A DNA stretch of 46,266 nucleotides from a virus: positions 1 through 46,266 of the IMG/VR virus record IMGVR_UViG_3300044796_000038; one strand, given 5' to 3'. A program made the translations under genes and the position numbers. Numbering within the stretch: position 1 is the stretch's first letter; each line of letters opens with the position of its first letter. This document shows, in pieces, positions 10,741 to 43,221 of the stretch. Below the pieces are notes generated by a model. That model saw only the letters and a program-made list of their open reading frames with translations. It did not search any database and had not been told where the DNA came from.

Positions 10741-12720
10741 TTACGCCCTTGTCAGACCCTGCGATACGACGTTTGAAACTTCCCAGACCGTATTGGCAAC
10801 GATACACGTCACCATTGCACTGTCGCTGCCATCAGTTGATGAAAACGAACCACCCGACGTTGACGAAACACTGCCGAATTGCAATGTCTGTCCCGTGTTG
10901 CCGGTAAGCGTCCAGCCACCTGAAGCGGCCAGACCCTTGAACACGATAGTGTCGCCCAGCGCGGCACTGGCCGGGAGTGTAACGACACAAGCGGTCGAGG
11001 CATGATTCAAAACATACCCGCTGCCGACAACCGCGTTAAGTGTTGCTGCGGTTACGGTTGACCATGCGCGGGGAACGGCACTGGCGGAAATGGTGATTGA
11101 ATTCGCGCCCGGGGTAACGGTGATGCCAGTGCCGCCAGTGATCGAACCGGCGAGAGGTGCGCCCGAACTGGAACCGATAACAATTTGACCATCCGTCAGC
11201 GCAAGCCAGGTCGGTACTCCGCTGGCATTGGTGCTTAACGATGCTGAATTGACCGTCGCGAGCGCGGCCATGACGTTGGCGCTGCTGGCATAGAGCAACG
11301 TATTCACGGCATTAGTGGTCGGATAGGTACTGGTAGACCATAACGGCGTCGTGGACGATCCGGACATCAAAAGCTGGTGGGCCGTTGCCGTCCCATTGAG
11401 GATTGCAAGCTGGGTGGCATTGGAATACACGATGCCGCCGTTGCTGGCAGTGAGACTGGCGTTTGTTCCACCATTCATCAACGAAATGGGATAGCTGATC
11501 GTGCCAAACTGAATGTAGGTGATAGCCGTTGTACCAATTGTCACGACGATGGTGCTGTTGTACCAGCCCGTCCCGCCGTTGGCCGTACCATTCAGAACCG
11601 GAATCAAGCCAGTGGCGTTGATCTCGCTGGGGGTGTCGTAATCCGTGGCACGGGTCAGGACGGCAGGTGATCCGCCGGAACTGGTCGTCAGGGTATAGAT
11701 ACCGTTGTACACGCCCGATCCGGTTGTATCGTTCTTATACAATATTCGGGAACTGACCGGCGGCGTCACGCCATCGATCGTAAACACCCCATTGCCCGGC
11801 GCGGTCAGTGTTGCACCAACGCCCGCCGTGCCGTTGTTGTACGTATACCCGGTGAGGTCTGCCGTGGACGCGGCATACACTGGCGCTGCGCCACCGCTCG
11901 CAATGCTGTCAACGTAGCCCTTCGTCGCGTAATCGGTTGAAACACTGGGCAGGGCGCCATTCGTGATCTGGAAGCCGCCCATATTGAGCGCCTGCGCCTG
12001 TACGCCCAGGGTCGTTATATTGCCCTGGACGGCAGCCGGGAGGGTGCTGGAAATCGAGGGATTGCCCGAGCTATCTGTGATCAAAACGCCGTTGTTGCCC
12101 GTGGCGAGAAACGCCATGGCGTCGGCTGTGCCATATACGAGGCTTTTCGGACTGGCGGTCAGGTTCGCATTCGTTCCGCCCAGTGAGAGTGGCAGGAAGT
12201 CATCCCACACTAGCGCCCCGGCCACTGCGGTCAGAACGCCTGTCGTGGGTGTTACCAACCCCTCAACCAGCGCACCGTCGGCTGGATAAAATGCAAGCTG
12301 GTGGGTATCTCCGGCGTCAACGGTACCGGTGCCTGGCGCGATGGCCCACTGGGGATTTGCCGCAGCGCCCAGCGTTTGCAGGAAATAACCACTGGTGCCA
12401 GGTGCCAGCACGACCCATGAGGTCGCGTTGCGGTACATTATGTCGCCCTGTGTACCGCCGATAACCGTGTCAATCAGTGCGGACAGGCCAGACCATGACG
12501 GCGCAGAATTCGATCCCGAGACAAATACTTCGTGCGCTGTGGCTGTCCCGGCAAGTATCGAAAGATGCGAAGGCCCAGAGTAGAGGACACCCCCATTACT
12601 GGCCGTCAGTGCCGCCCCGGTACCGCCCTGTGCGAGCGATACCGGAATGGTCACGGCGTTGGGGCCAAATTCGACGTGGAACACTTCACACCATTTCAGG
12701 AACTCTGCCGCACTGATCAT
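10741..12720 (-). CDS. Long tail fibre protein
   Basis: This 659-residue Gly/Ser/Thr-rich protein contains two copies of a shaft unit, SLAQGGTGAALTASNGGVLY near residue 28 and LMNGGTNASLTASNGGIVYS near residue 410, each followed by a similar GTATAH segment and a W-S end. A central part reads DYATKGYVDSIASG, a common fibre phrase. The C-terminal 110 residues (VVTLPASAALGDTIVFKG) look like a beta-prism or tip domain. AAGGAAA precedes the ATG. It is the longest fibre gene here and lies in a fibre cluster between the two terminase subunits. Confidence 0.8.
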   Translation of the reverse strand: MISAAEFLKWCEVFHVEFGPNAVTIPVSLAQGGTGAALTASNGGVLYSGPSHLSILAGTATAHEVFVSGSNSAPSWSGLSALIDTVIGGTQGDIMYRNATSWVVLAPGTSGYFLQTLGAAANPQWAIAPGTGTVDAGDTHQLAFYPADGALVEGLVTPTTGVLTAVAGALVWDDFLPLSLGGTNANLTASPKSLVYGTADAMAFLATGNNGVLITDSSGNPSISSTLPAAVQGNITTLGVQAQALNMGGFQITNGALPSVSTDYATKGYVDSIASGGAAPVYAASTADLTGYTYNNGTAGVGATLTAPGNGVFTIDGVTPPVSSRILYKNDTTGSGVYNGIYTLTTSSGGSPAVLTRATDYDTPSEINATGLIPVLNGTANGGTGWYNSTIVVTIGTTAITYIQFGTISYPISLMNGGTNASLTASNGGIVYSNATQLAILNGTATAHQLLMSGSSTTPLWSTSTYPTTNAVNTLLYASSANVMAALATVNSASLSTNASGVPTWLALTDGQIVIGSSSGAPLAGSITGGTGITVTPGANSITISASAVPRAWSTVTAATLNAVVGSGYVLNHASTACVVTLPASAALGDTIVFKGLAASGGWTLTGNTGQTLQFGSVSSTSGGSFSSTDGSDSAMVTCIVANTVWEVSNVVSQGLTRA

Positions 12721-12735
12721 CCGGTCATTTCCTTA

Positions 12736-13548
12736 TCAGGTATTCTGGGCCACCAGTGGGAGGTAGTACGCTACCCCGTCAACGCTGATTTTCAGAACCT
12801 TGCTGGGGGTGGGAGGCGTTGCGTTGCCCCATGACCCGGCAGTGGTGCCAGCATTTTTAAAGTATGTCACTCCGGAAAGCCCGGCGTTTGTCTGTAACAA
12901 CATGAGATTTTGAGCGCCACCGTAGAGATACAGTTGACCGGCCAGAACTGCGGCGGTCGTGTTGGTCATGGCGATACCGTACAGGCCAGTCTGGTCTGTC
13001 AGGGTATGAGAGGCGCTGCCGTAATCGCCCCAGATTGGAGCCATCTGGCCTGCGTTAATGGTAGCGGCGGAAATATCAAGCTGCCCGAACACCCCGGCAT
13101 TCCATGAACTGCCGGAAACCGTGCCGGATGGTATGGCCTTGCCCTGTACGCCGTACAGGAAGCCTGCCGAAGCCCCAACGTAGTTTACTACGCCACGGAC
13201 ACCGACAAGGTTACCCGATGTCATGGTGGTTGCCGTTCCGGTCATGCTGCCGACAAGGGCGCGAATGGTGCCAGGCCCGGCAGAAGCTGTGGTGTCCGCA
13301 ACACTTCCCGTCACGGCAGTCAGACCACCCGTCAGGGTAAGGCCGGTAAATGTGGGGGAATCCGCAGTGCCCAGCCCGAGGTTGTGCGCGGCAGCGGACG
13401 GACTGGAAATGTCAGACAGGTTACTGGCGGCGAATAACCACGAAGAAGCATTGAAACGCTGGTTTGCAGTACCACCCAGCAATCCGACAAGCACGTCACC
13501 ATTAACGGCGTCCTGTGCGGCGGGAAAACCTGTCCATGCAATAGTCAT
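12736..13548 (-). CDS. Fibre or tail-spike associated protein
   Basis: This 270-residue protein begins with MTIAWTGFPAAQDAVNGDVLVG. Its central region has aromatic/Gly repeats reminiscent of trimeric fibre domains (GVRGVVNYVG, VFGQLDISAATI, IWGDYGSA). It ends in a short beta-rich segment. The cluster position and composition indicate a virion fibre component. No enzymatic motif is visible. GGAG lies eleven bases ahead of the ATG. Confidence 0.7.
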   Translation of the reverse strand: MTIAWTGFPAAQDAVNGDVLVGLLGGTANQRFNASSWLFAASNLSDISSPSAAAHNLGLGTADSPTFTGLTLTGGLTAVTGSVADTTASAGPGTIRALVGSMTGTATTMTSGNLVGVRGVVNYVGASAGFLYGVQGKAIPSGTVSGSSWNAGVFGQLDISAATINAGQMAPIWGDYGSASHTLTDQTGLYGIAMTNTTAAVLAGQLYLYGGAQNLMLLQTNAGLSGVTYFKNAGTTAGSWGNATPPTPSKVLKISVDGVAYYLPLVAQNT

Positions 13549-14475: not shown

Positions 14476-14499
14476 CGCATTTTTTAAACAGAGGTGACC

Positions 14500-14676
14500 A
14501 TGACGACCAAACGACTGACAACCAGGGAGGTGGCGAAACGGCTGAAGCTCTGCCCGCAGCGTATTGCGGCAAAGATAGAACAAGGCCATTTTCCGGGCCA
14601 TGACTGGTGCGAATGCAAGCGCAGCATTCTCATACCTGAGAGTGATTTAAAACTGCCAGTAAACCAGAAAAAGTAA
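14500..14676 (+). CDS. Small HTH DNA-binding protein (excisionase/MerR-like fold)
   Basis: The 58-residue product begins TTREVAKRLKLCPQRIAAKI, the winged-helix pattern of HTH_17/AlpA-like proteins, with the usual R-x-F/S-I-L-I-P-x-D-L end (RSILIPESDL). Such proteins bind DNA as transcription regulators or accessory factors. A GTG six bases upstream is also in frame; ATG is chosen, with GAGGTG just before it. It is expressed from the promoter at 14447 and stands directly beside the DnaA-box-like pair and the large dyad, so it may control or serve that region. This link is inference. Confidence 0.8.
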   Translation: MTTKRLTTREVAKRLKLCPQRIAAKIEQGHFPGHDWCECKRSILIPESDLKLPVNQKK

Positions 14677-14679
14677 AAG

Positions 14680-14702
14680 TTATCCACAGATTCTGTGGGT
14701 AA
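14680..14702. other. Inverted pair of DnaA-box-like 9-mers
   Basis: TTATCCACA at 14680-14688 matches the DnaA-box consensus TTATNCACA exactly. TGTGGGTAA at 14694-14702 is the complement of TTACCCACA, one base from consensus. They face each other across five bases just after the HTH gene stop. Confidence 0.55.
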
Positions 14703-14737: not shown

Positions 14738-14914
14738 ATGAGTTTGAATTCAAGTTTATGGGAAAGGATCGATATACAACATCACGTCACTAATACTTTC
14801 CGTTTGAAGATACCCGGAGGGTGGCTAGTAAGAGTGCGGTCAGCGGATAGGGACTGCATGTCGTTCGTCAGTGACCCTGACCACCTGTGGAATACCCCTG
14901 CGATTCCTTACTGA
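14738..14914 (+). CDS. 58-residue protein, unknown function
   Basis: ATG at 14738 opens a 58-residue frame with GGGGATAAG ahead. The product (MSLNSSLWERIDIQHHVTNT at its start) has an amphipathic strand pattern and a core FRLKIPGGWLVRV followed by FVSDPDHLW. GGWLVR segments of this kind occur in small phage proteins, but I cannot assign a family. Codon use is like that of the neighbours, and a hairpin follows 17 bases after the stop. It belongs with the HTH gene in a short plus-strand unit. Confidence 0.65.
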   Translation: MSLNSSLWERIDIQHHVTNTFRLKIPGGWLVRVRSADRDCMSFVSDPDHLWNTPAIPY

Positions 14915-14930
14915 CAATCCGTAATATACA

Positions 14931-14951
14931 CACCGGGGGCAATCCCCGGTG
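14931..14951 (+). terminator. Hairpin, possible terminator
   Basis: CACCGGGG and CCCCGGTG form a perfect eight-pair stem around a five-base loop, shortly after the plus-strand gene ends at 14914. No strong T run follows, so it may be a weak terminator or only an RNA structure. Confidence 0.5.
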
Positions 14952-14969
14952 CATCTGTTCTACCCCCTG

Positions 14970-15298
14970 CCGTCCGAATGCCGTCCTGATCTGACCGAAT
15001 AAAATTTTCTATTCGGACGGCACCTATCCTATTGTTTATATTACTATATATATACTATCCGTCCGATACCGTCCTAATAAATAAAGTAATAGCAGACACC
15101 CATCCCAGTGTATAACAGGTATACAGTACGAGTGTACAGTAGGTACACAGTGGGGGATGGTGTGTGGGGGCGGTGGGAGTATGTCGTATATTCGGACGGT
15201 ATCGGACGGCAGGGTGATATTTGGTAATAAAATCAAGACGTTAAGAGGCGACCGAATAGAAAATTTTATTCGGTCGCCATTCGGTCGGTATCGGACGG
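14970..15298. repeat. 329-bp imperfect palindrome, candidate replication origin
   Basis: This non-coding stretch is an ungapped diverged inverted duplication centred on base 15134. Exact arm pairs are 14970-14977 with 15291-15298, 14993-15016 with 15252-15275 (24 bases), and 15059-15074 with 15194-15209 (16 bases). The 42 bases between the two long arms still match at 24 of 42 positions. Each 24-base arm is itself a small palindrome around AAAATTTT. The heptamer CGGACGG or its complement occurs six times. The left half holds an A+T-rich run at 15022-15058. It ends directly at the primase stop codon. Origin, termination or structured-RNA roles are all possible. Confidence 0.75.
15119..15151 (+). 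repeat. Three iteron-like 9-mers
   Basis: GTATACAGT (15119), GTGTACAGT (15132) and GTACACAGT (15143) are direct repeats spaced 13 and 11 bases at the centre of the large dyad. About one helical turn separates them, as expected for protein-binding iterons. Confidence 0.5.
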
Positions 15299-17626
15299 CT
15301 AGAGTATTTGTGCTTTTTCGTAAGCGGAAGGAATGGCCGTACCTGTCAGGCCACAATCAGGGTGATCGCGCTTAATGTACAGTCTTGGCCGGGATTTTCC
15401 AAGGGGGGTCATTACATCCGAAGTGGCTCGCCCGTCGTCCAGATTGGGGTGAGGTACATATCCCATCTCAAGGAGAAGTTTTCGTCGGCCCTTGCGCGGG
15501 CATTTACTGACCATCCTGGCGCGTGTCAATAGATCGGCAAGGGAAGCGGAGTCAATCCAGCCGCCTCTAAAGCCCGGTGCGCCCTGATCGACTGCTTCCT
15601 GTACCTCTGCCGCCACCGGGGTGATGCTCTGCAAGTAGGCGTCCTGTGTGGAACTGGTGGCAGGTGCGCGGTTGCAGATACCAGCGGGGTCAAGGTCAGG
15701 GGGAATGGGCCAGTTGTCGAGGGTATTGGCTACGATGCCATAGCCGTTGTGTTTTTTAAGCCACGGCCCGAACTCGTCGAAAAATGCTTGCGTGAGGCCA
15801 TCCCGAACAAGGTCAGCGGCTGTCTGCTGCCGTGTATATAGCGGGGCGAACCGTCGTGTGTTTTCCGTAATCCGGATGCCGTCCTTGAAATTGGAAGTGA
15901 AAAAGAAGTTTGCACAAATATCAGCCATTCGTTTGTTTTTATTCTTTTCCTCTACTTCCATGCGTTCGCCGGTAATCATGGGTTTGATGATCTCCAGCTT
16001 TTCCCCATGCGGGTCGAAAAAGTCGTCAACCAGAATGACCTGTTTGTTGTCGATCCAGCCGTTGAACCGTCCGCCCAAATCCTCCGAACGAACGATATGG
16101 CAGTACACCAGCCCGATTGCGTGCATGATGCACCCGACGAGAATGCTTTTACCGTTGCCCTCTGTCCCCTGAAGATAGGGTGCCCATGTAAACTTGACCC
16201 CGGGATTCTGGACACAGGACGCGGCGAAGGCCATAAACACGGCAAGGTCACGTTCGCTGGCAAAAATCTTGCTGAGGAATTCCCGAAACAGTGAGTCGTC
16301 CCCCTTGACCCGTACAATACCGCGTGGGACGTACAGATTAACCGCGTCCCGGCCTTCAATATTCACACGGGTACCAAAGGCAAGGTCAGGCCGGAAACAG
16401 GTACGGTGGGCGCGTGGGAACAGGTAAACGCGGTTTTGGGTGAAAGCCTCCCATGCGTTTTTGGTTGTCGGGCTTCGGTCAACGAGGTCAATCGTAAACT
16501 TGAAACCGCCGTACATGACCCGGAACTGATCCTGTGTGAGTATTTCCCCGCCCGGTATCAGTATGCCGTTGTGATCCTGAATGTATGTGCAATCTTTGAA
16601 CAGCGTTTTCTGGTGTTCTATACTGCTGAAACCGTCGGCTTTTCTGGCCACCGGGTTTCCGGGTTCGACGCCTTCCTGTCTCACTTCAGGCAATACGAAT
16701 GGCGGTGAGGTACAGGAATCACAAGCCTTGATGATAGTCGGAATCAGATACCCGTCCTCGCGTTTCCATTTCTCGCGGACGAGTTTTGACTGTTTCATGA
16801 GGCGCAAGACGCGCTCGCCGTCCTTGCCTGTCATCCATGCGAGGAACCCGGCGAGGGCAATATCCACAGTGGAATCGTCGATGTTCCCGTCAGACTTTGA
16901 ATAGTTTTTTGCCAGTACCGTCGTATTGTTTTCCCATAAGTCTCGGAACAGCGCCTTGCCCGTGAACACAGAAGCGTCTTTCATTCTGAGTGCGTGCTGT
17001 ATGAGGGCGTCGTCGTCGGTATGCCCGCGCCAGCCTTCGCACGGTTCGCTGGTCAGCACCCCCGTAGCTGTTCCCGGTTTGTCCCCGGTTCGTGGTGCGA
17101 AGTGTTCGCGTGCCGTAACCGCAAGGGCGGCAGTGCAATCTGTGAGTGCGTTTCCTGTCCCGTGGGTGCCAGTGAGCGCGACGAACCGGCCATGGAAATA
17201 AAGCTCCAGGCCGCTGCCGGGTTTTCCTTTGTTTACGTGTTCAGGGATAACAGAGTACGACCCAATAATGTGAAGGCCGCGCTCACTGGCTGAAACTTCC
17301 GTATACGCCCCGGGATACGACGCATACAGGTTCGTTGCAACGTCCGACCATTTGTCGTCATGGTAGGCGTTATCAATATCAATGAAAAAAAACGGGTCTT
17401 TTTCGGTAAACACAAATCCCACATCGTATCCCGCACCCAGTCGATTGGCGTGTGCATTGGCGGTATCGAAATCCATCCATGCCTTGTCGTCGAGATGATT
17501 CGTGTTTCGTAGCGTCACAGGGTCAACCGGTACCTTGTCTTTTTTTCCTTCTGTTCCCTTTCTGTTCCTTAGTTCGTAGACAATAAACTGACGGTATGCA
17601 ATCAAGCCCTGTGGCCGCAATTCCAT
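15299..17626 (-). CDS. Primase-polymerase with SF3-type helicase domain (NrS-1/D5-like)
   Basis: This 775-residue protein joins an archaeo-eukaryotic primase domain to a helicase. The N-terminal 200 residues hold FFIDIDNAY at 80-88 (Asp83 and Asp85, the metal-binding pair), SERGLHIIG near 125 and GLELYFHGRFVALTG near 150-165, the three primase motifs of the NrS-1 type. Around 485-493 is the Walker A GTEGNGKS, and near 525 QVILVDDFF as Walker B, typical of D5/SF3 hexameric helicases. It would prime and unwind DNA at the phage fork. It is the last gene of the leftward replication unit and ends at the large dyad. Leader GGGAAAACCAAAA precedes the ATG. Confidence 0.9.
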   Translation of the reverse strand: MELRPQGLIAYRQFIVYELRNRKGTEGKKDKVPVDPVTLRNTNHLDDKAWMDFDTANAHANRLGAGYDVGFVFTEKDPFFFIDIDNAYHDDKWSDVATNLYASYPGAYTEVSASERGLHIIGSYSVIPEHVNKGKPGSGLELYFHGRFVALTGTHGTGNALTDCTAALAVTAREHFAPRTGDKPGTATGVLTSEPCEGWRGHTDDDALIQHALRMKDASVFTGKALFRDLWENNTTVLAKNYSKSDGNIDDSTVDIALAGFLAWMTGKDGERVLRLMKQSKLVREKWKREDGYLIPTIIKACDSCTSPPFVLPEVRQEGVEPGNPVARKADGFSSIEHQKTLFKDCTYIQDHNGILIPGGEILTQDQFRVMYGGFKFTIDLVDRSPTTKNAWEAFTQNRVYLFPRAHRTCFRPDLAFGTRVNIEGRDAVNLYVPRGIVRVKGDDSLFREFLSKIFASERDLAVFMAFAASCVQNPGVKFTWAPYLQGTEGNGKSILVGCIMHAIGLVYCHIVRSEDLGGRFNGWIDNKQVILVDDFFDPHGEKLEIIKPMITGERMEVEEKNKNKRMADICANFFFTSNFKDGIRITENTRRFAPLYTRQQTAADLVRDGLTQAFFDEFGPWLKKHNGYGIVANTLDNWPIPPDLDPAGICNRAPATSSTQDAYLQSITPVAAEVQEAVDQGAPGFRGGWIDSASLADLLTRARMVSKCPRKGRRKLLLEMGYVPHPNLDDGRATSDVMTPLGKSRPRLYIKRDHPDCGLTGTAIPSAYEKAQIL

Positions 17627-22171: not shown

Positions 22172-22343
22172 GGTAACCGGATCGATACTGACTTCCCTGC
22201 GAACCAGATTCGTTATAACGACGGAAAGCGAGGACGATATTGACGACGTGCTGAATGACGCAATCAGAAATTCAGTCAGCATGGTCGAAGGATCGACCCT
22301 CGCGTTCGCGGTTGAAAAAATCGAACAGATAGAGGTGCAATGA
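22158..22343 (+). CDS. Small protein, unknown function
   Basis: The 61-residue product starts at ATG inside the last codons of the nuclease gene, 14 bases of overlap. It alternates a beta segment (TYEVTGSILTSLRTRFVITT) with an acidic helix (ESEDDIDDVLNDA) and a final strand. No family is recognised. Overlap and codon pattern support it as real. Confidence 0.7.
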   Translation: MPTYEVTGSILTSLRTRFVITTESEDDIDDVLNDAIRNSVSMVEGSTLAFAVEKIEQIEVQ

Positions 22344-22344
22344 T

Positions 22345-22491
22345 ATGTTTGAATGGCTAACGTGTTTATTGTATGGACATGTGTTCAACATGAACGACGT
22401 GCGGCGAGTATGGAAGAATGAAAAAAGCCCGGGCGTTCTTCAGGCGTGGTGCAAACGCTGTGAAAAATACAGGAAATTAAAGGATATTTAG
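22345..22491 (+). CDS. 48-residue CxxC protein
   Basis: ATG at 22345, with GAGGTG about ten bases ahead, opens a 48-residue frame. It holds LTCLLYGHVFN near the start and AWCKRCEKY near the end; the CxxC pair with an upstream Cys and His suggests a small zinc-binding fold, as in many short phage proteins that begin with a membrane- or CxxGH-like motif. The stop is four bases before a promoter -35 box. Function is unknown. Confidence 0.65.
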   Translation: MFEWLTCLLYGHVFNMNDVRRVWKNEKSPGVLQAWCKRCEKYRKLKDI

Positions 22492-22494
22492 CTA

Positions 22495-22523
22495 TTGACT
22501 CGCGGGTAACTGTTGATTATCAT
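22495..22523 (+). promoter_or_regulatory. Promoter for the ssDNA-binding protein gene
   Basis: TTGACT at 22495-22500 and TATCAT at 22518-22523 are 17 bases apart, 34 bases before the ATG at 22557. The upstream context CTATTGACT is shared with the promoter at 20314. Confidence 0.75.
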
Positions 22524-22556
22524 CCATAGAAATTCAACCATAGCAGGGAATAAAAA

Positions 22557-23411
22557 ATGAGTAACCGTACTGACCTATTGACTCCAATCGGAAGACTGGT
22601 ACAGGGATCACTTTACGAACCGAAAACCACGGACGCCGAAAACAAGCCTCTCATATACAAGACCGGCCCGAACGCCGGACAGCCCAGAGTGGAATACTAT
22701 TTTGCTCTTGCCGTGCCTAAAGGAACGGAACAGCACTGGAACCAGACCGAATGGGGTGGCAAGATTTGGGCAGTGGGTCAGGCTGGGTTCCCGAATGGTC
22801 AGGCAAACAGCCCGGCGTTCGCCTGGAAAATAACCGACGGTGACAGCACGATTCCGAACCGCGTCGGAAAGAAACCGTGCGATTTTGAAGGGTATGCGGG
22901 CCACTGGATTCTGAAGTTTTCCGGCGGGTTTGCCCCGAACATCTATAACGCCGACGGCACCCAGCAATTACTCGAACCGAACCACGTCAACCTCGGCGAC
23001 TACATACAGGTGTACGGAAACGTAGCCGACAACGAAAGCCAGCAACAGCCCGGTGTGTATCTTAACCATTCAATGGTCGCGTTCGCCGGTTACGGTACCA
23101 GAATATTCATGGGCGCCGATCCGAAGTCGGTCGGATTCGGTAACGCCCCGTTACCCCCGGGAGCAAGCGCCACGCCATTGCCACAGGGGTTCAACCCGGC
23201 AACGCCCACCCCAGCCCCGACGCCACCGGCCACCGCGCCAGCGCCCTACCCGCAAATACTCACACCGGGCACGCCGCCGATGCCACCCGCACCCCCGGCA
23301 GCACCAGCCCGTGTGATGCTTCCAGCCGCGCAGGGTGCTACCTATGAGTCATTAATCGCGGCAGGCTGGACAGACGGTTTGCTGGTACAACATGGAATGA
23401 TGCAACCCTGA
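22557..23411 (+). CDS. ssDNA-binding protein, DUF2815-like
   Basis: This 284-residue protein matches the pattern of phage DUF2815 single-stranded DNA-binding proteins (OB fold): an opening TPIGRLVQGSLYEPK, an aromatic-rich EYYFALAVPKGTEQHW, then PNHVNLGDYIQVYGNVA and KSVGFGNAP. The last 90 residues are a Pro/Ala-rich linker and a short conserved tip (ATYESLIAAGWTDGLLVQHG). It would coat ssDNA at the fork. It has its own promoter, in keeping with a need for high amounts, and sits between the nuclease and polymerase genes. Confidence 0.82.
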   Translation: MSNRTDLLTPIGRLVQGSLYEPKTTDAENKPLIYKTGPNAGQPRVEYYFALAVPKGTEQHWNQTEWGGKIWAVGQAGFPNGQANSPAFAWKITDGDSTIPNRVGKKPCDFEGYAGHWILKFSGGFAPNIYNADGTQQLLEPNHVNLGDYIQVYGNVADNESQQQPGVYLNHSMVAFAGYGTRIFMGADPKSVGFGNAPLPPGASATPLPQGFNPATPTPAPTPPATAPAPYPQILTPGTPPMPPAPPAAPARVMLPAAQGATYESLIAAGWTDGLLVQHGMMQP

Positions 23412-34740: not shown

Positions 34741-35466
34741 CTAGGGTACGTAAATAAAATTTCCGTTTTCAAAATTCTGGTTCAACGGGCCGAATCCCCA
34801 GATTGTACCATTATTGACAATATACTTTATCCCAACGCCCGCCGGTCTGGGCAACAGGTCATAGCCGCTTTGGGTGGAATCCGGGTCATACTTTATCGCG
34901 TCGAACAGATTGGCGGATATGTCAAAATTAAACACATACGTCATGCTCATATCGAGGTCGTCGAGCGCGTATATTGCGCCAATTGGTGTAAACGACGAGG
35001 TTAAAATCAGATAGTTCAGAAACGAATTGATCTCCGGAATAGCTCCCCGCGTGACAAGCTGGAAATACCGGAGGCGCAGAATAAACCGCTGTTCCTCAAG
35101 GGTCAAAGTGATCGGGGGTACCTGATTTGAAAAATTACCAAATCCGAAATTGAAATACCCGTTTTCGAGCGTTGGGAATGACGGATTGTAGGCATTGAAT
35201 CCCCAAATCGGTTTACCGGGCGGATCAGGGTTCAGGGGAACGAATAGCGGAACACCCAGAATAATCGACCATACCGAAAGCCCGAACAGGTTTGCCGTGC
35301 GAAGGTCAAACACGTTTGTATACCAGTCTGTCCAGAACTGCGTTTGATTCACGTCGTACCAGGCTTGTTTCTGGTTTAACAGGCTGGTAAGACTGGTCGC
35401 GTTCCCGTACTGCCACAAAAGCGACTGTACAAGGTTCACGCTATAGTCGAACTCCTGAATCTTCAT
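34741..35466 (-). CDS. Baseplate/tail protein, DUF2612
   Basis: The 241-residue product matches DUF2612, a baseplate periphery family in AP22/Pam3-type phages: FDYSVNLVQSLLWQYGNATS at the start, WYDVNQTQFWTDWYTNVFDL, then RLRYFQLVTRGAIPEINSFL. Its start overlaps the J-protein stop by four bases. It likely connects the baseplate wedge to the fibre encoded next. Confidence 0.85.
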   Translation of the reverse strand: MKIQEFDYSVNLVQSLLWQYGNATSLTSLLNQKQAWYDVNQTQFWTDWYTNVFDLRTANLFGLSVWSIILGVPLFVPLNPDPPGKPIWGFNAYNPSFPTLENGYFNFGFGNFSNQVPPITLTLEEQRFILRLRYFQLVTRGAIPEINSFLNYLILTSSFTPIGAIYALDDLDMSMTYVFNFDISANLFDAIKYDPDSTQSGYDLLPRPAGVGIKYIVNNGTIWGFGPLNQNFENGNFIYVP

Positions 35467-40643: not shown

Positions 40644-41181
40644 GGTCGGCCCCGATTCTGCTTTTTCGAGTGTTCAATTGCTAGGTGTTCGTTGTACCGG
40701 CTAACGGCGATCACTTCGTAAAGGTTAAAAGCATCCTCCAGGCTGTAAACCGTCCTCAATTCGTGGAGCGTCGCCTTGCCTTCCTGGACGATAGCCCCGA
40801 TAAAGCCGTCAAAATTTGGGTACTCAATGCTCGGACTTTCTGGGCGAAATCGTCGAAGAAACTCAAGACCCGCCCGCCCTGAAAAAAACTGACGTTGTAC
40901 TCCATCATCGCCGCTTCCACGCGCATCAGGGTTTCCCAGTTGCCCGTGTGGTTGTCGATAAGTGCCGGGGTCGTCAGTCGCAGCGTGCCGTTTTCCGTGG
41001 GAATTCCGACGAAGGCCATCAGCTTGAACATGGTTTCTTCGTTCGTCTTGTAGTCTCCAAGTTTTGGCAATGCGGAAATAGGATACTTGACGACGATCTC
41101 GCGTCCCGCGATTGCCGGGAATTTCGAGAGTACAAAATTTCTTCCATCGATAACGACGGATTTTTCCTCAATCAACATCAT
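40640..41181 (-). CDS. Tail assembly chaperone, -1 frameshift product
   Basis: Reading starts at 41181, follows the chaperone frame to Phe100, slips back one base on T TTT TTT (40888-40882) and continues from 40882 to the TGA at 40642-40640, giving 180 residues. The 80-residue extension reads GFIGAIVQEGKATLHELRTV and YSLEDAFNLYEVIAVSRYNE in its middle, clearly protein-like, and ends as ATGA with the tape-measure start. This fills an otherwise non-coding 112-base gap. Such G/GT-type pairs guide tube formation around the tape measure. The slip itself is inferred. Confidence 0.85.
40756..41181 (-). CDS. Tail assembly chaperone, unshifted form
   Basis: The 141-residue product of the normal frame (SKFPAIAGREIVVKYPISAL, ETMFKLMAFVGIP) is the first part of the chaperone pair. 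Its last 41 residues after the slip site become basic and low-complexity (SGLSSRKARRRSTN), as expected where the second frame carries the selection. The ATG overlaps the tube stop (ATGA), and a second ATG follows directly. Confidence 0.85.
   Translation of the reverse strand: MMLIEEKSVVIDGRNFVLSKFPAIAGREIVVKYPISALPKLGDYKTNEETMFKLMAFVGIPTENGTLRLTTPALIDNHTGNWETLMRVEAAMMEYNVSFFQGGRVLSFFDDFAQKVRALSTQILTALSGLSSRKARRRSTN
40882..40888 (-). other. -1 ribosomal slippery heptamer
   Basis: Seven consecutive T on the minus strand in the frame AGT TTT TTT CAG present the ideal X XXY YYZ heptamer T TTT TTT. Both tRNAs re-pair perfectly after slipping one base. Confidence 0.85.
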
Positions 41182-41621
41182 ACGGAAATTATGCCTTCAA
41201 ATGAAAAATTGTACGTCCGGGTCTTGATGCGTCCGGCGCTGGCGACTGCCTTCCCGGGAATGCCGTCGGTGATAACGCCATTGATCAGGGTCACAAAACT
41301 GCCGTCGGGATAGATGCCGGTCATGGTAATCGTGTCGAGTGCCGGAAACTTGCCACGGCCTGGACGGTTTGCCTGTAACAGAATATTGAGATTCACGTCA
41401 CTAAAGCTGCCCGGGATGACCGAAATGACAGTTTTAATGGGATTGGCCTTTGACCACACGATCTGGTCGCCATTCAAGCCCATGGCGCTGTCTGCCACCT
41501 GCAAGGAGGGAAGGTCAAAGGGGTCAGAATCGTCCGCAAATTCAGTGATAAGGAACCCCACCGGGAACGTGGTCGAAGCGATACAGTTTATTTGTAATCC
41601 AAAACCTGAAATATTTTGCAT
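41178..41621 (-). CDS. Tail tube protein
   Basis: The 147-residue product (CIASTTFPVGFLITEFADDS, SDPFDLPSLQVADSAMG, then NLNILLQANRPGRGK) has the pattern of DUF3277-like tube proteins of Pam3/AP22-type phages. It is the gene between sheath and tail chaperone, the standard tube position. AAGGA precedes the ATG. Confidence 0.82.
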   Translation of the reverse strand: MQNISGFGLQINCIASTTFPVGFLITEFADDSDPFDLPSLQVADSAMGLNGDQIVWSKANPIKTVISVIPGSFSDVNLNILLQANRPGRGKFPALDTITMTGIYPDGSFVTLINGVITDGIPGKAVASAGRIKTRTYNFSFEGIISV

Positions 41622-41640
41622 GGTGTTTGTCCTTAAAAAA

Positions 41641-43221
41641 CTATATCAAAACATGGGTTCCCTGAATTTTGCGAATAACGTCGTCTTTGCTGTACACCAG
41701 GGTGTACACGGCGGTGTAAATCACCGGACTGCCTGACGGAACCATCACACAATCCACCCAGTAACCATCGGTCTGCACCTGGTAGTATGCCTGTTCGTCG
41801 CCAGTGATAGAGGTGATTTCGGCAATCTGCGCGGAAGTCAGAACCTTGCCGACGCTGATCGCGCCATTAAACAGCGCGAGATTGATCACGGACTGCAAGG
41901 CGGCAAGTATCTGGGCGCGGCCTTGTGCGTTCGCTGAAATCTTCGGGAGCGCGATCAACAGGTTCATAAGCGCGACACTGGCGGCGTCTTTCAGCCATTC
42001 CTCGTTTGCGTATACGTTCATGTCGAGCGGGTCAGTAGACTGCCCGAACAGGACGCCTTGCTGGTAAAAACTTATGAACTGCCCGGCTGTCTGGGTCTGC
42101 CCCATGTAATTCACACTCGCCGCGTCGTAACTCTGTTTCGTGGTGTCGTCTGTCACGCTCGGGGTCAGTGTGGAGGAAAGCTGGAATTCATAATTCTGCA
42201 CGGCATTTTGTGCGTTGTAGTTCGTGGCGGCCAAAATCATCATTGGCAACATTTCCGGGTATTGGCCGGACACGTTGGAAACCGTCATGCCGCACCCGCC
42301 AATTCCGCCCAACCCGGTCGAATCATTCGACCATGCGGACACGTTGGCAGCGGAACAGGGAACCATGAACATATAGACCACATTGAGGCCATAATTCCAG
42401 GTAGCGGCTTCGATATTCTGGTCAAGGGTCAATGGGGTGGCGGGACAGAATGCAAAGCTCCCGAAATTGTTGGACAGACCGGCGGAAACTTCGAGGGTGT
42501 CGGTAATGGATTCGACTGCCGATCCGGGGGCAAAAACGGCCCCCGAACCAACCGCCGGGAGAATATTGCCGTTAGTGTTGACGATAGCGGGAAACCAGCC
42601 GATCAGTTGGGAAATATCCACCCCGGATGCGCCTGCGCCAACCGAAATGGTATTGGCACCTGTCGCACCACCGGTGAACTCGAATACTCCTGTATTCGGG
42701 GCATAGCCGGGGGTAGCCACATACGCCACGGTCGCGCTGGTAAACACTGCACCTGACCCGGTACGGATAACGGTCTGCAATACTGCGGCCACATCTGCGA
42801 GGCTGGTACAGGCACTGAAATCAATATTTGTCAGGGAAAGAAGAACCCCGCCAATAGTGATCTCGAATGATCCAGTCGTTATGCCGGTGTAGTTGTGATA
42901 ATCCTGCGGCGCGGAAGTGCCGGGGTATCCGAAAATCCGGGGAGCAACGGCGGTACTAACCCAGCGTGCAAACGATATTTTCTGGGGTTGTGTGCCATTC
43001 TTGCTCACGAATCCGAAATAGTAAGCTGCTCTCAGGTACTCTACCGAACTGGTGCCGAAGTAATTACCGACCGCCGCCGCACTGCTGAATTCAATAAAAG
43101 ACTGCGGGGGCAAAAGCACGTTGTCTGTAAACATTCTGGCAATTAGCTGGCGTTGTGCGACCGCTGCGCTTGCCCCGACAACCGAGGTTATATCGACGTA
43201 CTGGTTCAGCGAAATAGCCAT
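41641..43221 (-). CDS. Tail sheath protein, DUF3383
   Basis: This 526-residue protein matches DUF3383 contractile sheath proteins: SFIEFSSAAAVGNYFGTSSV and EYLRAAYYFGFVSKNGTQP near the start, FYQQGVLFGQSTDPLDMNVY and ANEEWLKDAASVALMNLL later, and a GSPVIYTAVYTLVYSKDDVI end. It forms the contracting outer cylinder and defines the phage as a myovirus. Confidence 0.93.
   Translation of the reverse strand: MAISLNQYVDITSVVGASAAVAQRQLIARMFTDNVLLPPQSFIEFSSAAAVGNYFGTSSVEYLRAAYYFGFVSKNGTQPQKISFARWVSTAVAPRIFGYPGTSAPQDYHNYTGITTGSFEITIGGVLLSLTNIDFSACTSLADVAAVLQTVIRTGSGAVFTSATVAYVATPGYAPNTGVFEFTGGATGANTISVGAGASGVDISQLIGWFPAIVNTNGNILPAVGSGAVFAPGSAVESITDTLEVSAGLSNNFGSFAFCPATPLTLDQNIEAATWNYGLNVVYMFMVPCSAANVSAWSNDSTGLGGIGGCGMTVSNVSGQYPEMLPMMILAATNYNAQNAVQNYEFQLSSTLTPSVTDDTTKQSYDAASVNYMGQTQTAGQFISFYQQGVLFGQSTDPLDMNVYANEEWLKDAASVALMNLLIALPKISANAQGRAQILAALQSVINLALFNGAISVGKVLTSAQIAEITSITGDEQAYYQVQTDGYWVDCVMVPSGSPVIYTAVYTLVYSKDDVIRKIQGTHVLI

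Follow-up and report, generated by a model that had tools for sequence, protein, structure and literature searches.

Inverted iteron blocks with IHF sites downstream of a phage PrimPol-helicase gene: a probable replication origin

What is the function of a large imperfect palindrome at the 3' end of a phage replication gene? The DNA analysed here (the window, all 46,266 nucleotides of IMG/VR record IMGVR_UViG_3300044796_000038) carries such a block at 14970-15298, in which 196 of 329 positions are self-complementary about centre 15134. A preliminary description had offered an origin, a cruciform or a large RNA hairpin as explanations. Our comparative evidence favours the first of these, and neither a full-length cruciform nor a full-length hairpin proved to be the conserved feature. 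We propose, with a probability of roughly 0.75, that the element is a replication origin of the phage with inverted iterons, probably bound by its PrimPol-helicase.

The palindrome is real and far above chance expectation. Recounting recovered all the exact arm runs reported about 15134 (8, 24 and 16 bases), and the interval between the long arms is partially matched as described, although at 25 rather than 24 of its 42 positions. At this centre 98 of 164 arm positions pair, against a mean of 41 and a next best of 71 for all other centres in the window (z = 9.6). No dinucleotide shuffle of the 611-bp gap equalled the common-centre arms (mean 59.3, sd 2.3, maximum 67; n = 500). Folding of both strands as RNA, and of the plus strand as DNA, gave z = -8.7 to -9.3. 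A fold this strong, at the 3' end of PrimPol where convergent genes meet, would suit a structural element acting in termination or RNA stability, either a cruciform or a large RNA hairpin produced by convergent read-through. We consider this very unlikely, since a separate terminator-like hairpin is present at 14931-14951 and since relatives conserve iterons and IHF sites but not the long gapless palindrome (see below).

The block had also been described as a diverged inverted duplication. The inverted arms are real, but they are better read as mirror-image blocks of iterons. All six CGGACGG heptamers noted earlier were found (15014, 15193, 15203 and 15292 on the plus strand; 14970 and 15059 on the minus strand), the heptamer being part of an 11-bp iteron, (A/T)TCGG(A/T)CGG(C/T)A, present in about 12 copies when degenerate ones are counted. 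Five copies are exact and the remaining ones have 1-3 mismatches, one alone being no better than chance. Three iteron-like 9-mers claimed at the centre are visible, but they are weak and by eye only. The element is composed as follows:

14968-15300: whole element, running into the PrimPol stop codon (15299-15301)
14968-14999, minus strand: left outer block, three iterons, of which two are degenerate, with 2 and 3 mismatches
15012-15022, plus strand: left middle iteron TTCGGACGGCA
15057-15077, minus strand: left inner block, two iterons
15191-15211, plus strand: right inner block, two exact iterons
15246-15256, minus strand: right middle iteron, 2 mismatches
15269-15300, plus strand: right outer block, three iterons, with the stop codon of PrimPol overlapping the last one

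The blocks thus run 3-1-2 on the left and 2-1-3 on the right, on mirror-image strands, and iterons inside blocks are spaced 10-11 bp apart, about one helical turn. Clustered noncoding repeats of near-helical spacing are what an iteron origin should have, and this is the single top noncoding cluster of the window: its inverted-repeat score is 47, and that of the next noncoding cluster is 12.

Between the iteron blocks lie sites resembling the IHF consensus, for which WATCAANNNNTTR was used, together with A+T-rich DNA and a skewed core:

15025-15037, minus strand: degenerate IHF-like site AAACAATAGGATA, differing from WATCAANNNNTTR at 2 positions, mirror of the right-arm site
15030-15056: A+T-rich stretch, 89% A+T
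15080-15190: core between the inner blocks, with GTG 7 times on the plus strand vs 2 on the minus strand
15148-15180: G-rich tract in the core, candidate PrimPol start sites
15231-15243, plus strand: perfect match to the IHF consensus, AATCAAGACGTTA; the window has only one other

The left-arm site is comparable with AATCAATAGGTTA in locus L116. The A+T-rich DNA that had been reported in the block was confirmed at 15030-15056, and it would provide the opening region of an iteron origin. No 40-mer of the genome is more skewed than the C-rich complement of the core tract; across relatives, the C/G-rich strand bias of the core was not significant (22/34, sign test, P = 0.12). PrimPol priming takes place at GTG start motifs (PMC8718748).

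The element has the following surroundings:

14494-14676, plus strand: HTH_17 gene with conserved synteny in several relatives, its product being another candidate for iteron binding
14680-14702: DnaA-box pair TTATCCACA...TGTGGGTAA, about 270 bp outside the block
14738-14914, plus strand: 58-aa ORF located between HTH_17 and the element, below the cut-off of the initial ORF list, read by eye
14931-14951, plus strand: terminator-like hairpin just outside the element
15299-17626, minus strand: PrimPol-helicase gene, 775 aa, NrS-1 HBD and DUF5906, presumed initiator

The DnaA-box-like pair named in the preliminary description does exist, at that distance. The stretch at 14680-14702, TTATCCACAGATTCTGTGGGTAA, consists of the DnaA-box consensus and an inverted near-copy, and it scores as a minus-strand terminator-like hairpin. 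The 58-aa ORF gave no Pfam match, Rfam yielded nothing, and no named phage showed nucleotide-level similarity to the window. The TerS gene also lies on the HTH_17 side. The proximity and synteny of the HTH_17 gene could suggest that the array is an operator through which its protein controls transcription. This is highly improbable, given that a sigma-70-type scan found no promoter-like site in the element, that the element sits at gene 3' ends, and that Jedunavirus gaps carry clusters without an annotated HTH neighbour. The iteron binder would most likely be the phage's own PrimPol-helicase. The phage is a myovirus whose genes include a ResIII helicase, an exonuclease, an annealing protein and a family-A polymerase. 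The GC-skew check proposed earlier gave no support for an origin here, the cumulative minimum falling near 20-21 kb, where gene orientation switches. At the start of a tail-fibre gene, 12664-12723 is near-identical (89% over 38 bp) to 4498-4557 of L019, an otherwise diverged phage, and may be a recombination joint for host-range exchange.

Is this architecture peculiar to one phage? Short repeats in both orientations were searched in loci whose PrimPol is about 35-43% identical, plus others sharing TerL, a comparison set that contains no close relative in which to follow the window's own iteron. Inverted-iteron clusters recur downstream of PrimPol in noncoding gaps, frequently next to terminase. 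The iteron sequence differs from phage to phage, and the best noncoding clusters reach z = 5-24 against shuffles. Read along the PrimPol strand, a cluster usually opens with outer iterons, an IHF-like spacer and inner iterons, continues through A+T-rich DNA that is often preceded by a C-rich tract, and closes with the mirrored series of inner iterons, IHF-like spacer and outer iterons; single phages are without some parts. Among complete isolates, a cluster occupies the TerS-adjacent gap of JD001, PEAT2, LAPP1, B2 and Scuro; among noncoding clusters it ranks first in JD001, PEAT2 and B2, and by score not first in LAPP1 and Scuro. Two predicted origins in these isolates are:

22924-23335: predicted origin, Klebsiella JD001
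34804-35206: predicted origin, Acinetobacter LAPP1

The continuous gapless palindrome is not conserved (window z = 9.9; relatives' clusters z = 2.4-5.8, where shuffles reach 3.1-4.6), and the long hairpin is specific to this phage. Since the iteron/IHF layout recurs and the gapless palindrome does not, what the relatives conserve is not a full-length cruciform or RNA hairpin. It had been suggested that relatives keeping the flanking genes but lacking the arms would speak against the element; the literal arms are indeed absent, but the architecture is kept.

Several loci were examined and set aside. Large palindromes in L043, L049, L057, L069-072, L039, L025 and L085/088 were rejected as homologues because they are repeat arrays that sit inside long open frames and were interpreted as tandem repeats in coding sequence. 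Long tandem GCGAACCTT-type arrays lie in open frames near PrimPol in L043, L049, L057, L069-L072, L039 and L025, and their products look like pentapeptide-repeat proteins. Exact 17-mer matches in L016 and L017 were at about chance level, with no comparable palindrome. The syntenic L018 and L019 are without such a palindrome directly after PrimPol, and their clusters are located further on. Two other arrangements were seen: tandem AGCTACACGCTACAGCTCCAAGAGCTTAAA units adjoin the cluster of L124 (6660-6779), and L180, an Ignavibacteria MAG contig carrying a PrimPol relative, has a pair of IHF consensus sites, spaced 77 bp, next to AAATAGATTTTAAGT-type repeats (13150-13384).

Within the clusters, a set selected by score and eye, the IHF consensus occurs 25 times in 11.2 kb, against 27 times in 614 kb outside, a 50-fold enrichment whose P-value is not fully independent because some of these same clusters, when read, first suggested the IHF idea. 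Exact sites occur in only 17 of 31 clusters. The flank test used 73 independent contigs and was framed after their noncoding IHF matches had been listed and ten of these read by eye. At least two GG(G/T)TA lay on the predicted side of 11 of the 25 noncoding matches, compared with 49 among 1338 random noncoding positions (P = 1e-9). The inverted-7-mer score around these independent sites was not raised (P = 0.30), so that only part of the architecture was confirmed there. For four further isolates, candidate gaps were named from annotation before scoring. The named gap was top in KsaM-C1 and joint top in CP-T1; of the two named in 7-7-1 (22194-22575, which adjoins PrimPol, and 41181-41979), the second ranked first and contains the sole IHF match within the 50 kb read. 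The named gap of MSW-3, cut by the record end, shows the layout and was not top.

Repeats combined with IHF sites are also known at packaging sites such as lambda cosB and P1 pac, and the clusters often adjoin TerS. They could thus mark a packaging start (cos/pac), where the repeats bind the terminase small subunit with the help of IHF. We find this unlikely, as the clusters track PrimPol and not a terminase family: among loci with the same TerL, PrimPol-positive ones outscore PrimPol-negative ones (medians 19 vs 13, P = 0.0003; with L130, a contig beginning near the gap, counted negative, P = 0.0007; L106 is treated as positive, since its contig also includes L027, which carries PrimPol). The TerS of the window has no detectable similarity to that of the isolates, and TerL similarity is partial and restricted to some isolates. 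In addition, the 7-7-1 cluster lies about 7 kb from TerS, and packaging offers no obvious role for mirror symmetry.

In the neighbouring PrimPol-helicase, the AEP primase-polymerase, helix bundle and helicase domains of the NrS-1 type were found by Pfam, by PDB profile search and by Foldseek. The structure model (pLDDT 89, pTM 0.57) matches the NrS-1 C-terminal region, SaPI5 PriRep1, pox D5/E5 and ASFV PrimPol in Foldseek. The C-terminal domain is confidently modelled and has no significant fold match; a P4-like winged helix was considered for it, and the fold search gave no support. We infer that replication starts at the element. The initiator would bind the 11-bp iterons as two oppositely facing oligomers, one per mirror-image arm, while host IHF would bend each arm (the right site being exact and the left degenerate) so that outer iterons meet inner ones. 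The resulting strain could open the A+T-rich DNA, two head-to-head helicase rings would depart in opposite directions, and the PrimPol domain may prime within the exposed GTG-rich core.

We favour a replication origin because the element is the top cluster of its window (47 vs 12), because the layout recurs in relatives, and because of the IHF enrichment, the flank test, the higher scores with PrimPol at the same TerL, the match of the PrimPol model to NrS-1 and SaPI5 structures, and the SaPI precedent. Counted against it are the exact IHF sites in just over half of the clusters, the unraised inverted-7-mer score, a skew that does not turn at the element, the gaps of LAPP1, Scuro and MSW-3 that are not top, and a C-terminal domain without a recognisable origin-binding fold. 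More tentatively, and with somewhat less than even confidence, we suggest that phages with an NrS-1-type PrimPol may share an undescribed class of origin built of inverted iteron blocks, built-in IHF sites and a skewed core, at which head-to-head PrimPol-helicase hexamers could open the duplex and prime de novo, with neither loader nor primase supplied by the host. The window would be an extreme form, its arms making a near-continuous palindrome. Iteron origins are already known as a kind; we found no description in the open-access literature examined of an IHF-containing inverted version for NrS-1-type PrimPol phages. The NrS-1 PrimPol is a well-studied self-priming polymerase, and we found no located origin for phages using it. 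Predicted origins with coordinates in cultured phages make initiation by a single primase-polymerase-helicase directly testable, and a recognisable architecture may permit origin annotation across a large phage group.

Several known systems can be compared with the element. At the ori/crr of phage P4, the alpha protein is a primase-helicase initiator with iterons; the origin-binding winged helix of P4 was not found by fold search in the C-terminal domain of the window PrimPol. In pSC101 and R6K, iterons, A+T-rich DNA and IHF cooperate in opening (PMC5043065). The window combines the same three parts, but those plasmids use host DnaA and a plasmid Rep, whereas here the arrays are inverted and the helicase-primase is phage-encoded. 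No described NrS-1 origin was found, and exact TTTGGTTA is missing from the window, which has only one-mismatch TTTGGTAA inside 15218-15230; the PrimPol domains are the same, and GTG start motifs are abundant in the core (PMC8718748). In SaPI origins, which serve the Rep or PriRep1 helicase-primase of S. aureus pathogenicity islands, the iterons directly follow the helicase gene and are thought to be bound by two hexamers, and C-terminal origin binding has been demonstrated for the related Cch2 (PMC7581432). Unlike a SaPI, the window is a lytic-type phage with an NrS-1-type PrimPol in which no origin-binding domain was recognised, and with IHF sites between its iteron blocks. Its iteron sequence is, to our knowledge, unrelated to SaPI iterons. 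Like the SaPIs, it carries its iterons directly downstream of a D5-type primase-helicase gene, and the product of that gene is predicted to resemble SaPI5 PriRep1.
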